Of a stretch of DNA of 20,431 bases, positions 3,182 through 12,007 are shown piece after piece (the stretch's first letter is position 1; the number at the start of each line of letters is the position of its first letter). The stretch spans positions 1 through 20,431 of IMG/VR virus record IMGVR_UViG_3300035698_011539, one strand, 5' to 3'. A program made the translations under genes and the position numbers. Below the pieces are notes generated by a model, which had not been told where the DNA came from, made no database searches, and worked only from the letters and a program-made list of their open reading frames with translations. Origin of the DNA: a virus.

Positions 3182-3628
3182 TTACCTGTTCGCGGCTTTT
3201 ATTTCTTCTGTAGTTTTATATTTGCGTATAAAAGGTTCTGGTAAGACAGTGTTAAGCTTCTTAAGAATTTTATTATTAGTTTTATTATTAACCTCTAATC
3301 GTTTAGTATTACTAAATAAACTATATTGATAATTATCATCAGCATTTTTTGAATACTCTAAACCAAGAATAAAATCGAAATTACCTCTATTTGTAACAGT
3401 ATAATGAAGGGCATCATTTCCAGGCCAATAATATATATCTAAATTCTTAGTAATACCCATTCGTAAACTATCAAATTTATCCATTTTTATTAATTCAGAT
3501 ATTTCTTTTTTATTGGCGTTTTTAACTATATCTACATAATCATCAGCCGCACCTCTTCGTTGGGTTATCATAAGATAATCCCAATCACCTTCTATAATAA
3601 TTTTCTTATATGCTTCAGTAAATTTCAT
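3182..3628 (-). CDS. Late protein with possible capsid-targeting N-terminus, 148 aa
   Basis: The body is not recognised. The N-terminus, MKFTEAYKKIIIE then GDW, resembles the short targeting peptides of T4 internal head proteins. Residues I11-I12-E13 then G14 fit the T4 prohead protease (gp21) consensus of L/I-x-E before A/G. A late promoter (3648-3655) lies 20 bases upstream, as expected for a head component. It sits directly downstream of the capsid-like gene. The N-terminus MKFTE-x-Y is shared with the late gene at 5071. The remainder (about 135 residues) is mixed and polar, with no metal-binding or nucleotide-binding motif visible. Head packaging is an inference. Confidence 0.7.
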   Translation of the reverse strand: MKFTEAYKKIIIEGDWDYLMITQRRGAADDYVDIVKNANKKEISELIKMDKFDSLRMGITKNLDIYYWPGNDALHYTVTNRGNFDFILGLEYSKNADDNYQYSLFSNTKRLEVNNKTNNKILKKLNTVLPEPFIRKYKTTEEIKAANR

Positions 3629-5070: not shown

Positions 5071-5433
5071 ATGAAATTTACAGAAAAATACGATGAAGTT
5101 ATGAATCTACAGGAAAAGGCACAAAAAGTGGATGATGTGGATTTAACAGTATTAAAGAAAATAATTAAGAAATATAAACCAGCTGATATTAATAAAATGG
5201 CAAAAGATGAAAATAATATTGTCACTAATATCACAAAGGTATTCGGCGATAAGGTTAAATTTGTTGTTAATACAGGAGAAGAAGCAGTGGAAGCATATTT
5301 TAATGCTGAATATTATGATAACATCGAAGAAAAAACTGGTGGTGCTGGGATTCTTATTAAATATGATATAGATGATAATAAAGTTTTAAGTGTTGAATTT
5401 GGTGGTGCGGGTGCGTGGCCATTTATAAAATAA
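5071..5433 (+). CDS. Late protein with MKFTEKY N-terminus, 120 aa
   Basis: The family is not recognised. The N-terminus, MKFTEKYDEVMNLQEKAQ, resembles that of the gene at 3182-3628 (MKFTEAY). L13-Q14-E15 partly fits the T4 prohead-protease site, although K16 follows instead of A or G. The middle is lysine-rich and helical. The C-terminal third is strand-like and ends in a glycine-rich tail, FGGAGAWPF. AAAAGG precedes the ATG by about nine bases. Transcription probably comes from the two-way late promoter at 4959-4972, and a strong terminator follows at 5456-5485. It could be an internal head protein. Confidence 0.7.
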   Translation: MKFTEKYDEVMNLQEKAQKVDDVDLTVLKKIIKKYKPADINKMAKDENNIVTNITKVFGDKVKFVVNTGEEAVEAYFNAEYYDNIEEKTGGAGILIKYDIDDNKVLSVEFGGAGAWPFIK

Positions 5434-8783: not shown

Positions 8784-8820
8784 TATAGAAATATATATGT
8801 TTATGTATAGAAATATATAT
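8784..8820. repeat. 15-base direct repeat
   Basis: TATAGAAATATATAT occurs at 8784-8798 and again at 8806-8820, a 22-base period. It lies in the 154-base gap between nrdG and the WYL_2-like gene that ends at 8820. The gap contains no supported gene. Confidence 0.6.
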
Positions 8821-9305
8821 TATGTATCACTAAAATGCTTTTTACGTTGTTCAGGTAAGGGTCTAATAGCGGCTCGATAGAAAGCTACAAATTTTGCTTG
8901 ATCCATTAATTGTTGAGCTGATGTGTATCCAACTATAATATAATCATCTAGACTTATCATTCTAAACTCTCTACACATAAGGTCCCACACGATAATTAAT
9001 TTTCTTTTACGGTACCAGGCTTTACCACGTCTTGTTTTAGGTTTTTTCCACTTAAATAATCTTCTTGTTAGCGCGGAGCTAACAAACATCCAGTTTCCTG
9101 TACATAACATTCTTCTAGTGGTTTTCATATGTCCGGTAGTACGCTGTGCAACTTTCCAGGGAATATTTTTTAGGTCTCTTCTTTTGAATCTAACTTCTAC
9201 AACATTTGCAGCAAAAAACTGTTCTAAAGTTGCTCTAGGTAAATTTGTTTTACGCGGAACAACCTTCTCTCTAAGAATAAGTGGTGTGCGTCTACCTGTT
9301 GGCAT
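8820..9305 (-). CDS. WYL_2/DUF2693-like protein, second copy
   Basis: 161 residues, strongly basic. It matches what I recall of the DUF2693 (WYL_2, SH3-barrel-like) pattern: VEVRFKRRD near residue 35, TRRMLCTGNW in the middle, then LIIVWDLMCREFRMISLDDYIIV towards the C-terminus. It is clearly paralogous to the gene directly upstream (9305-9892). Both share RML-x-T-x-x-W, FKW, RGK-x-WY-x-x-K-LIIV-x-DL, and ISLD-x-Y-x-IV. It starts on the base where the upstream gene stops, so the two are coupled and probably share the late promoter at 9914. The function is unknown; WYL-type barrels in other proteins sense ligands or nucleic acids. Confidence 0.7.
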   Translation of the reverse strand: MPTGRRTPLILREKVVPRKTNLPRATLEQFFAANVVEVRFKRRDLKNIPWKVAQRTTGHMKTTRRMLCTGNWMFVSSALTRRLFKWKKPKTRRGKAWYRKRKLIIVWDLMCREFRMISLDDYIIVGYTSAQQLMDQAKFVAFYRAAIRPLPEQRKKHFSDT

Positions 9306-9892
9306 TATTTATTAAACCATTTTATAAGTTTTTTACGACCGTATTTCTTCAATAAGTTTTTATACTTCTTTATGAAATCGTCTTGTTGTTGTTTATTCTT
9401 TACAGGTATTATATTAACAATTGAGTATTCATCTAATGATATATGACGCCACTGTTGACGTATAAGGTCATGTACAATAATCAATCTTTTTCTTTTATAC
9501 CATACCTTACCTCTAGGTGCAACCCCACCTGGTGGTTCCCACTTAAATACACTTTTATTTGAATTTAAATACTTCCAATCAGCTGTTGCTAACATTCTTC
9601 TAACAGGTGTTTGTTGACCTGGATTAGGAAATTTAATAGGCCAAATTCGACGAGTGAACACAACTTCAATTATACTATTATCTAATAGACTACGTATATT
9701 TCTATCATTTATACCTTTAGCTCGTTTACCTTTAATAAAAAGGCCCTTACTCTTAGGTACAACATCGTCTTGTTCGTCTTTTGAAAGTTTCTTTTTCTTG
9801 GGTGATTTCTTCTTAAGACTCGCTAATTCTTTCTTAGCAGCATCAGCCCATTCTTTAGATTTAAATTCTGGAAAATCATGGTCTTCTGGCAT
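9305..9892 (-). CDS. WYL_2/DUF2693-like protein with Lys-rich N-terminus, first copy
   Basis: 195 residues. The C-terminal 120 match the neighbouring 161-residue protein: RRMLATADW, FKWEPP, RGKVWYKRKRLIIVHDLI, WRHISLDEYSIV. It also carries an extra N-terminal region of about 65 residues that is highly lysine-rich (KKKSPKKKKLSKDE), probably disordered and possibly nucleic-acid binding. A late promoter (9914-9921) and an AAAGG ribosome-binding site precede the ATG. The tandem arrangement points to gene duplication followed by divergence of the N-termini. The function is not known. Confidence 0.7.
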   Translation of the reverse strand: MPEDHDFPEFKSKEWADAAKKELASLKKKSPKKKKLSKDEQDDVVPKSKGLFIKGKRAKGINDRNIRSLLDNSIIEVVFTRRIWPIKFPNPGQQTPVRRMLATADWKYLNSNKSVFKWEPPGGVAPRGKVWYKRKRLIIVHDLIRQQWRHISLDEYSIVNIIPVKNKQQQDDFIKKYKNLLKKYGRKKLIKWFNK

Positions 9893-10457: not shown

Positions 10458-10644
10458 TTTTCTTCTTTTCCGATTCAATTGATTTTTTAAGAATGTCAAT
10501 AATTGCCCAGTTTATCTTAATCTGATCAAATTCAGTGCCCCGGCAGAAATCATCAAAATATTTAGTAAAGGATGCTATATCACTAGCATCCATTTCTACT
10601 TCCATATTTACTACTTTTTTTTCTTTTTCGCTTAAAAAAATCAT
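10447..10644 (-). CDS. Hypothetical acidic protein, 65 aa
   Basis: Not recognised. It is short, charged and probably helical, with no cysteine cluster. The ATG shares a base with the stop of the upstream SNSSSSSF gene (TAATG-type junction at 10644), and the end overlaps the next gene, so it belongs to the same operon. Confidence 0.6.
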   Translation of the reverse strand: MIFLSEKEKKVVNMEVEMDASDIASFTKYFDDFCRGTEFDQIKINWAIIDILKKSIESEKKKNEE

Positions 10645-10982
10645 TATTCGTCCCTTCCTCCATCAGTGTACCAATATAATTCATCAACTTTTATATTAAT
10701 ACCAGCCTTTTTAAATTCGTCAACAATACGCTGCTTGAATTGCAATAAGGTTTCATCATCTTTCATATTATTTGGTTCTAAACCAAATATATGACATTCA
10801 TAATATTCTTCAATTCCGCTACTATAGTTTAATTTGTATGGAGTATCTTTATTAGACCAACTCCATGAATTGTCTGCTATTTCCTCATAAGCTTCTGTGT
10901 ATTCATCAGAGTCTACACATACTCCTAAAATACAAAAACTACTACTTGAACTATTACTTACGAACCCTTGTCTAATTTTCAT
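10644..10982 (-). CDS. SNSSSSSF-leader protein, copy 3, 112 aa
   Basis: The N-terminus MKIRQGFVSNSSSSSF is shared with the two genes directly upstream. The remaining sequence differs: it is acidic and aromatic (Asp, Glu, Tyr, Trp), with a helical stretch around residues 75-95 (DDETLLQFKQRIVDEFKKAG) and no obvious catalytic motif. It overlaps the upstream gene by one base. I recall this N-terminal phrase at the start of many unrelated phage and bacterial proteins, and know of no assigned function for it. Confidence 0.75.
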   Translation of the reverse strand: MKIRQGFVSNSSSSSFCILGVCVDSDEYTEAYEEIADNSWSWSNKDTPYKLNYSSGIEEYYECHIFGLEPNNMKDDETLLQFKQRIVDEFKKAGINIKVDELYWYTDGGRDE

Positions 10983-11386
10983 TAATAATCACCTTCATGT
11001 ATAAATATAAAATCATCAGAAACATAATTAAGCCTTATATCACATAATAAGGTTTCTATACTTTCGCTGTCACTACAAAAGGAACCATATTGAACAACCA
11101 TTCCTTTGTCAATTGCGTCCAACGTTCGTTGTATATCTGAATTTGGGTTGATGTCATCAGATTCGTCATACCCATATTTGTCCAAAACTTCTTGTTTTGA
11201 TTTGAATGTTTTTTCAATACAATCATAAGTACAATTAATAGCATCCGTGATAACTGGTGCAAATATATTAGTATCTGGTATTGTAAACTTTTCTAACATG
11301 TATTTTTTAATATCAATATTAGATTTATGACAAATAACAAACGAGCTACTTGAACTATTACTAACAAATCCTGTTCTAACTTTCAT
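10982..11386 (-). CDS. SNSSSSSF-leader protein, copy 2, 134 aa
   Basis: Begins MKVRTGFVSNSSSSSFVIC. The body is unrelated to the other two copies by eye. It is acidic, with a run of residues DESDDINPNSD near 75-85 and scattered cysteines that form no clear metal site. The stop overlaps the next gene's ATG; twelve bases separate it from the upstream copy. Serine codons in the shared segment come from both TCN and AGY families and differ between copies, which points to selection on the peptide. Confidence 0.75.
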   Translation of the reverse strand: MKVRTGFVSNSSSSSFVICHKSNIDIKKYMLEKFTIPDTNIFAPVITDAINCTYDCIEKTFKSKQEVLDKYGYDESDDINPNSDIQRTLDAIDKGMVVQYGSFCSDSESIETLLCDIRLNYVSDDFIFIHEGDY

Positions 11387-11398
11387 TCTAATCTCCTA

Positions 11399-12007
11399 TC
11401 AACTATATACATATTCGTATAATTCGTCATATGTTTTAAAGGTTTTTTTAATATCCTTTTTGGCTTGTTCAACTGTTAAACCAGCTTCCTTTTTAACGTA
11501 GTTAAAGTATTCACCATTGCATATCGATTTACACTCTTTATGTTCCTTCTTAACGTCTTGATAAACTTCATTCCTGGATATACCAGTTTTCTTTACCATA
11601 TATTCAACACACATATCACCTACTGTTGTGTGTAACGAACAAATTGGACATAAATCTTCAGGAACATTATAATGCAAATCGGCTATAATATCATCTAACT
11701 CATCATAATTATCTTGTTTCCACTTATTGAATTCATCTTTTGATAAGTCTTTAATTTCATCAAGTAAACTACCATTACCATCTGACAATAATTTTGTAAC
11801 AAATTCTTTATCCATATCATCTATGTCAGAATCTATATTCATAATACTATCATCTATATGGTACAAACAAAATATATGGCCACCAACACATTCAGCCATT
11901 TCAGCTTCACAAAGGCTTATATCCATACCACCGACTTCTTCACCACAAACATTACATACAAATGAACTACTTGAAGAATTACTAACAAATCCTGTTCTAA
12001 TTTTCAT
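11399..12007 (-). CDS. SNSSSSSF-leader protein, copy 1, with metal-binding body, 202 aa
   Basis: Begins MKIRTGFVSNSSSSSFVCNVC. After the shared leader comes a cysteine/histidine-rich region: C18-x-x-C21, C33, C40, H44, C47 and H50, then CPICSLH and a further cysteine near residues 118-130. This looks like one or two zinc-binding modules of RING or ribbon type. The C-terminal 60 residues are helical and lysine-rich. It is the first of three consecutive leader-bearing genes; its ATG overlaps the end of the frameshifted small gene upstream. Function unknown. Confidence 0.75.
   Translation of the reverse strand: MKIRTGFVSNSSSSSFVCNVCGEEVGGMDISLCEAEMAECVGGHIFCLYHIDDSIMNIDSDIDDMDKEFVTKLLSDGNGSLLDEIKDLSKDEFNKWKQDNYDELDDIIADLHYNVPEDLCPICSLHTTVGDMCVEYMVKKTGISRNEVYQDVKKEHKECKSICNGEYFNYVKKEAGLTVEQAKKDIKKTFKTYDELYEYVYS

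Follow-up and report, generated by a model that had tools for sequence, protein, structure and literature searches.

Why should three consecutive phage genes begin with almost the same 16 residues and then encode different proteins? The question is raised by a phage fragment of 20,431 bases (virus record IMGVR_UViG_3300035698_011539), the whole of which is referred to here as the window. By inspection of its list of open reading frames (ORFs), the window carries T4-like genes (UvsX, gp41-, gp32-, gp45- and gp61-like, and NrdD/NrdG). The three genes, P1 to P3, and their common starts, or tags, are as follows.

11399..12007, minus strand: tagged gene P1 (202 residues), Cys/His-rich body of cluster 1 (43 members; CxxCG...ECxxGHxFC..H), from ORF call and clustering
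11960..12007, minus strand: tag of P1, codons 1-16, MKIRTGFVSNSSSSSF
10982..11386, minus strand: tagged gene P2 (134 residues), body of cluster 0 (44 members), the family of the tag protein of bacterial STAND cassettes, from clustering, profile comparison and an AlphaFold model
11339..11386, minus strand: tag of P2, codons 1-16, MKVRTGFVSNSSSSSF
10644..10982, minus strand: tagged gene P3 (112 residues), body of cluster 3 (38 members), C-terminus of the family type W/G-x-D-G, from clustering
10935..10982, minus strand: tag of P3, codons 1-16, MKIRQGFVSNSSSSSF

P1 and P2 are 12 bp apart, whereas P2 and P3 have a single base in common (TAATG). The tags follow the consensus MK[IV]R[TQ]GFVSNSSSSSF, after which the bodies diverge. 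A sequence-only reading of the window had picked out these ORFs for their near-identical starts and different bodies, one of them rich in cysteine and histidine. That description holds, and the Cys/His-rich body is that of P1 (10 Cys, 5 His). No Pfam or NCBIfam family accounts for P1, P2 or P3, and their only match in PHROGs was phrog_7397 ('unknown function'), which covers hardly more than the tag.

The tags proved to be conserved as peptides. Any two of the window tags differ at 1-2 of their 16 amino acids, compared to 5-10 of the 48 nucleotides, with 3-5 synonymous codon changes per pair. The codon for Ser11 is TCT in P1 and AGT in P2 and P3, and that for Ser15 is TCA in P1, TCG in P2 and AGT in P3, which bears out the earlier statement that serine codons switch between TCN and AGY. 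The same behaviour was found across 248 neighbouring pairs of tagged genes, where the serine codon class switched at 424 of 1374 serine positions (the median spacing of consecutive tagged genes was 11 bp). As TCN and AGY are used freely at the tag serines, selection acts on the peptide and not on the DNA, as had been proposed; selection at the codon or RNA level is ruled out by the freely varying synonymous codons.

A tblastn search of isolate phages with a 23-residue tag gave no match, very probably as a result of masking of the serine run by the low-complexity filter, and the tag was therefore searched for with DNA patterns. These found at least 119 stretches in IMG/VR, compared to 35 in approximately 85,000 bacterial and archaeal genomes, showing that the tag is mainly a phage feature. 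A degenerate core pattern was present in all 49 longer records chosen by motif (1 to 8 copies each), while the reversed pattern was present in none, so its recurrence is not due to chance. The highest copy number, 10 tags in one phage record, emerged later from a search for the enzyme described below.

The position of the tag is as constant as its sequence. In a first scan, whose pattern included K2 and R4, 249 of 256 occurrences of the motif began exactly 5 residues past an ATG, and most of the remainder had a GTG or TTG start or a start shifted by one residue. A second scan, which demanded neither these two residues nor a start codon, again placed the motif at the N-terminus. Among 405 tagged proteins, K2, N10, S11 and S12 were each present in at least 404 and R4 in 404, F7-V8-[ST]9 was nearly invariant, and position 5 was free. 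Conservation ended after residue 18, and from residue 19 the entropy of the body was near 4 bits. In Bacillota, the tags found beside the enzyme gene (see below) were often of a variant type, MK[IV][RK]x[GD]F[VI]TNSSS[TAES]SF. No paper describing the motif was found among open-licence PMC papers. The start MKxRxG|F resembles a type IV prepilin cleavage site; processing of this kind was rejected by inspection, as most bodies have no hydrophobic stretch after the tag and position +5 is not Glu.

What follows the tag is highly varied. The 431 different complete tagged proteins from the fetched loci, with a median length of 134 residues and a range of about 80-690, fell into 116 body clusters, 86 of them singletons, in support of the proposal that the tag is a modular N-terminus on differing bodies. 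Homology of the bodies along their full length, which would have spoken against modularity, was not found in a profile-profile comparison of the bodies without their tags, for which the 12 largest clusters supplied 13 profiles. Just two pairs were linked, namely the phage and bacterial profiles of cluster 0 (97% probability, E 3e-11) and clusters 2 and 9, and the bodies of P1, P2 and P3 had no detectable relation to each other in this comparison.

The sequence-only reading had allowed that the tag might be simply the first strand of one known fold, and the tagged proteins could accordingly be members of one widespread fold whose first strand is conserved. The AlphaFold model of P2 (mean pLDDT 88.8) partly fits this, with residues 13-20 forming strand 1 of a confidently predicted alpha/beta domain, and most families have hydrophobic residues after the tag. 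However, residues 1-10, the most invariant of all, are disordered (pLDDT about 46) and lie outside the P2 fold. In addition, the 12 large clusters are mostly unrelated to each other, and tags are also found on Cys-rich bodies and on apparently membrane-bound bodies of about 480-690 residues. We therefore regard a conserved first strand as a very improbable explanation, and a fold common to all tagged proteins was rejected on the profile-profile comparison. The P2 body had no confident match in a fold search of the PDB and BFVD, which does not prove the fold to be new.

Does the tag have a partner? The largest family among ORFs near tags was an untagged radical-SAM protein, present at 83 loci before curation. 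The uncurated family included a few dUTPases and other proteins, and a curated alignment (A1/A4) was used for later work. The enzyme was found full-length (E 1e-108 or better), and almost always as a single copy, in 39 of the 49 tag-bearing viral records (≥53 kb), and in all 15 tag-bearing cellular genomes. The association also held in the opposite direction. A pattern for the enzyme only retrieved 42 viral records, of which 38 contained the strict tag and 40 the tag or its variants MKRRKTFVSNSSSSSF and MKVRHGFISNSSSSSF; the remaining two are 38-kb fragments. Similarly, a screen of 398 Bacillota genomes that started from the enzyme gave 9 matches, and a tagged gene was adjacent in all 9.

For a control we took viral records >50 kb bearing PhoH, since a marker scan with the UvsX of the window found no relatives. 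None of these 37 records had the tag, and none had the enzyme save for one weak, generic radical-SAM match. The Fisher p values for the association (2e-15 and 3e-18) serve to rank it rather than to measure it, as the control is not matched by lineage. The two components are usually close together, with <6 kb between the enzyme and the nearest tag in about 29 of 31 records. The nearest relative of P2 in the collected set (41% identity; L197:1307-1693) directly adjoins an enzyme gene (L197:1703-2746). In isolates, the enzyme matched 173 phage records and the RB16-type tag protein about 174 (an approximate number from N-terminal matches only), with a nearly identical breakdown by organism.

Ten of the 49 tag-bearing viral records lacked the enzyme. 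Most are fragments and two are 214 and 222 kb long; searches of the ten with PHROG 7293 and Radical_SAM found no member of the enzyme family, five having a generic Radical_SAM match and five none. The majority of all records are metagenomic and possibly fragments. The window, itself only a 20-kb fragment, lacks the enzyme, whose gene must therefore be in another part of the phage genome. An amidoligase was the first idea for a partner, as a ligase modifying the peptide tag, but Amidoligase_2 occurs in only 4 of the 49 tag-bearing records. The window itself encodes an Amidoligase_2 protein (PF12224, E 1e-16) at 182-955 on the plus strand.

Escherichia coli phage RB16 provides an example from an isolate. 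Its enzyme, RB16p156 (E 5e-128 to a member from a tag locus), is encoded about 20 kb from two tagged proteins, RB16p106 and RB16p111. The tryptic N-terminal peptide of RB16p106 is SGFVSNSSSSSFIIGIGLVRPGK. The body of RB16p106 (L208:16613-17077) matches phrog_132, a head-tail adaptor (E 3e-10, residues 64-147), which may be due to chance or may reflect a real link to virion assembly. A protein with a VWA domain, RB16p109 (L208:17920-20139), is encoded between the two tagged genes, and a VWA-like gene is present in other tag loci too (L082:8167-9078).

The data above show that the tag is under selection as a peptide, is strictly N-terminal, precedes unrelated bodies, and co-occurs, usually in close proximity, with one enzyme family in both phages and bacteria. 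What kind of enzyme is this? It is a radical-SAM/SPASM enzyme, listed in PHROGs as phrog_7293 ('unknown function'). Alignment A1 shows invariant cysteines at positions 60, 67 and 70, the last followed by Tyr, and at positions 251, 273, 291 and 339. The first three form the CX3CX2C motif, which is exact in the bacterial enzymes, while the first spacing (Cys60-Cys67) is often longer in the phage enzymes. Cys273 and Cys291, in CES...CSF, together with Cys339, are as expected for a SPASM domain, for which the Pfam model scored above cut-off in 3 of 4 enzymes. Pfam Radical_SAM was above cut-off in two enzymes (L073 and L149), below it in a third (L030), and unlisted for RB16p156. The best NCBIfam relatives were maturases, at scores far below the cut-offs, which places the enzyme outside the named families. 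Two loci (L039:8585-10331 and L146:1-924) have a radical-SAM gene that by eye seems to carry an intein-like insertion exactly in the catalytic cysteine motif, ending ...VYNFHCLPNE...THN|CYK.

The predicted structure agreed with this assignment. The AlphaFold model (pLDDT 94.9) matched SuiB (Z 24.1 over 305 residues), SkfB (23.2), CteB (19.2) and anSMEcpe (19.0), with lower scores for viperins and PqqE, and by sequence profile SkfB was the best plausible solved relative. Thus, both the fold and the iron-sulphur cysteines of the enzyme are those of maturases that act on peptides and proteins. Such maturases have a conserved substrate peptide encoded with them, a role that the co-occurring tag would putatively fill.

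The closest solved folds are those of the RiPP maturases SuiB, SkfB and CteB, which, like the enzyme here, are encoded beside genes with a common, conserved short peptide (SuiA, SkfA and CteA). In contrast to those systems, the peptide here stands at the start of numerous proteins that are unrelated and often folded, several per genome, with one phage-encoded enzyme, and no recurrent protease or transporter neighbour was seen in the phage tag loci. Nor do the tagged proteins look like RiPP precursors, which are short, consist of a leader and a modified core and have no folded domain; the median tagged protein has 134 residues and P2 is predicted to fold. In acting, putatively, on a residue of a full-size protein, the enzyme resembles anSME, another radical-SAM/SPASM enzyme. 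However, anSME acts on the active site of one enzyme family, whereas the site proposed here is a tail at the N-terminus of unrelated proteins.

Two further systems share a sequence motif with the tag. The triceptide enzyme MscB links C4 of Phe to Cβ of Ser, and F-x-S is a triceptide motif (PMC11002830). The tag contains F-x-S as F7-V8-[ST]9 and so has the aromatic-x-Ser/Asn/Asp/Arg pattern, which is a necessary feature only; it lies at the N-terminus of a protein, unlike the small C-terminal core of triceptides, and a cross-link here is only a candidate. FxSxx peptides occur with radical-SAM/SPASM enzymes in VMAP conflict systems (PMC7159879), which likewise combine such an enzyme and a conserved F-x-S peptide with an NTPase. 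In those systems the motif is at the C-terminus of a protease-processed peptide, whereas the tag motif is found almost without exception at the N-terminus and its NTPase is an Avs-like STAND protein.

We consider it likely that this dedicated radical-SAM/SPASM enzyme (phrog_7293 in phages) recognises its substrates by the tag and, most likely, also modifies them there. A single enzyme per genome would serve every tagged protein encoded there. It would bind the flexible decapeptide M-K-x-R-x-G-F-[VI]-[ST]-N and the serine run, and would install a radical-chemistry modification in or beside the bound tag. As F-x-S is a known triceptide motif, we propose a Phe-Ser cross-link at F7-V8-S9 as one candidate, which is a guess; oxidation of Ser or another change would be equally possible. 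The modified N-terminus might then be what allows small, acidic and otherwise unrelated proteins to function or to be recognised, with stability, docking to a common partner and signalling as candidate roles.

The modified residue could also sit outside the tag, because some body families keep their C-termini. In clusters 0, 3, 4, 5 and 14 the last residues (EGGY/GGW, W-x-DG, SHH, GAGRNG and NDNY) are the best-kept part of otherwise diverged bodies. The tag might therefore be a classical leader, which the enzyme binds in order to modify the body, for example at these C-termini, and which a protease may later remove; RiPP precursors work in this way. We think this quite unlikely, as clusters 1, 2 and 7-9 have no conserved C-terminus, the bodies have no residue motif in common, P2 is predicted to be a folded domain, and the phage loci show no recurrent neighbour of the protease or transporter type.

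In bacteria, the tag and the enzyme are found in a distinctive setting. The tag gene accompanies an Avs-like STAND NTPase at 10 tag loci, in 9 of which the enzyme is also on the fetched stretch. In Veillonella parvula SKV38 the gene order is a metallo-β-lactamase (MBL) protein similar to Avs1a/LmuA (LmuA 4e-56, Avs1a 2e-36), a trypsin-STAND protein of 925 residues (matching only Avs2, 1e-17, and Avs1b, 7e-7), a 136-residue protein, the tag protein (137 residues), the radical-SAM enzyme (338 residues) and a 302-residue protein. The STAND protein of a Verrucomicrobium (L133) has a restriction-enzyme-like N-terminus in place of trypsin. This arrangement looks like a putative defence cassette. AVAST (Avs) systems of type 1 combine an Avs1a-like MBL protein with the trypsin-STAND protein Avs1b; the bacterial tag cassettes have an Avs1a/LmuA-like MBL protein and Avs-like STAND NTPases, to which the tag protein and the radical-SAM enzyme are added, and phages carry these last two without STAND. 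Some bacterial tagged proteins are long (L157:2376-4451, L371, L373 and L374; about 480-690 residues) and have a hydrophobic, apparently membrane-spanning stretch straight after the tag, and adjoin a divergent copy of the enzyme.

The compact bacterial operon bears on the role of the tag. Co-occurrence is compatible with the tag as a substrate or as a docking partner, and does not tell which. As a docking partner, the tag would be an unmodified address by which tagged adaptors recruit the enzyme; their bodies would bind different host targets, and the enzyme would modify those. Such an arrangement explains why a genome with many unrelated bodies has a single enzyme, and fits a disordered tag beside a folded body. 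Nevertheless, we judge docking to be unlikely, since a compact operon with a single tagged protein is a better fit to an enzyme with one substrate, and the near-invariance of almost all tag residues exceeds what docking usually needs.

A tag that directs proteins into the virion has also to be considered. T4 internal proteins are variable small phage proteins with a constant, capsid-targeting N-terminus, and that system tracks the prohead protease. A packaging signal of this kind would have the same architecture as the tag, in which small proteins of T4-like phages vary behind an unchanging N-terminus. However, the T4 sequence is a different one, and the tag tracks a radical-SAM enzyme rather than a prohead protease. 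In addition, the tag occurs in bacterial chromosomal cassettes without capsid genes, and an informal look revealed no cleavage motif of the T4-protease type in the tag. Packaging is thus highly improbable as its function. The sequence-only reading had offered processing, modification, localisation or packaging as roles for the tag. Of these we favour modification, given the almost one-to-one co-occurrence of the tag and a radical-SAM/SPASM enzyme; no positive evidence emerged for cleavage, localisation or packaging. That reading had also called the bodies effectors, which is plausible.

Taking the tag as a site of modification, it is possible, albeit speculative, that a radical-SAM system modifying the N-terminal tails of many unrelated proteins is common to phages and bacterial defence cassettes, with P2-like bodies acting as decoys or inhibitors of the Avs-like cassette, or with the cassette having captured a phage module. 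That Avs-like STAND cassettes contain both tag and enzyme, the tag protein being a related one, provides a link to the arms race between phages and bacteria.

In many phages and some bacteria, the tag and the radical-SAM enzyme probably constitute a protein-modification system, apparently undescribed in phage biology as covered by the open-access papers searched. Its parts, radical-SAM/SPASM enzymes and conserved peptides, are of known kinds; it is their arrangement that seems to be undescribed in those papers, and the best reading is of a RiPP-like system that acts on whole proteins. Hundreds of phage 'hypothetical proteins', so far annotated singly and with no common thread, thereby acquire a candidate function, as does a radical-SAM family of common laboratory and therapy phages (RB16, RB43 and KP15; about 170 records of Klebsiella, Enterobacter, Cronobacter and Citrobacter phages). 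If true, a radical-SAM enzyme that can modify arbitrary folded proteins on a short N-terminal tag would be a useful tool for protein labelling.

The window has two other sets of genes with features in common. Those at 3182-3628 (minus strand) and 5071-5433 (plus strand) both begin MKFTE[AK]Y and then diverge; this is possibly a second common N-terminus, perhaps resembling the T4 capsid-targeting sequence. The consecutive genes at 8820-9305 and 9305-9892 (both minus strand) appear by eye to be diverged paralogues (RRMLxTxxW...WY+KRKLIIVxDL...ISLD[DE]Y).
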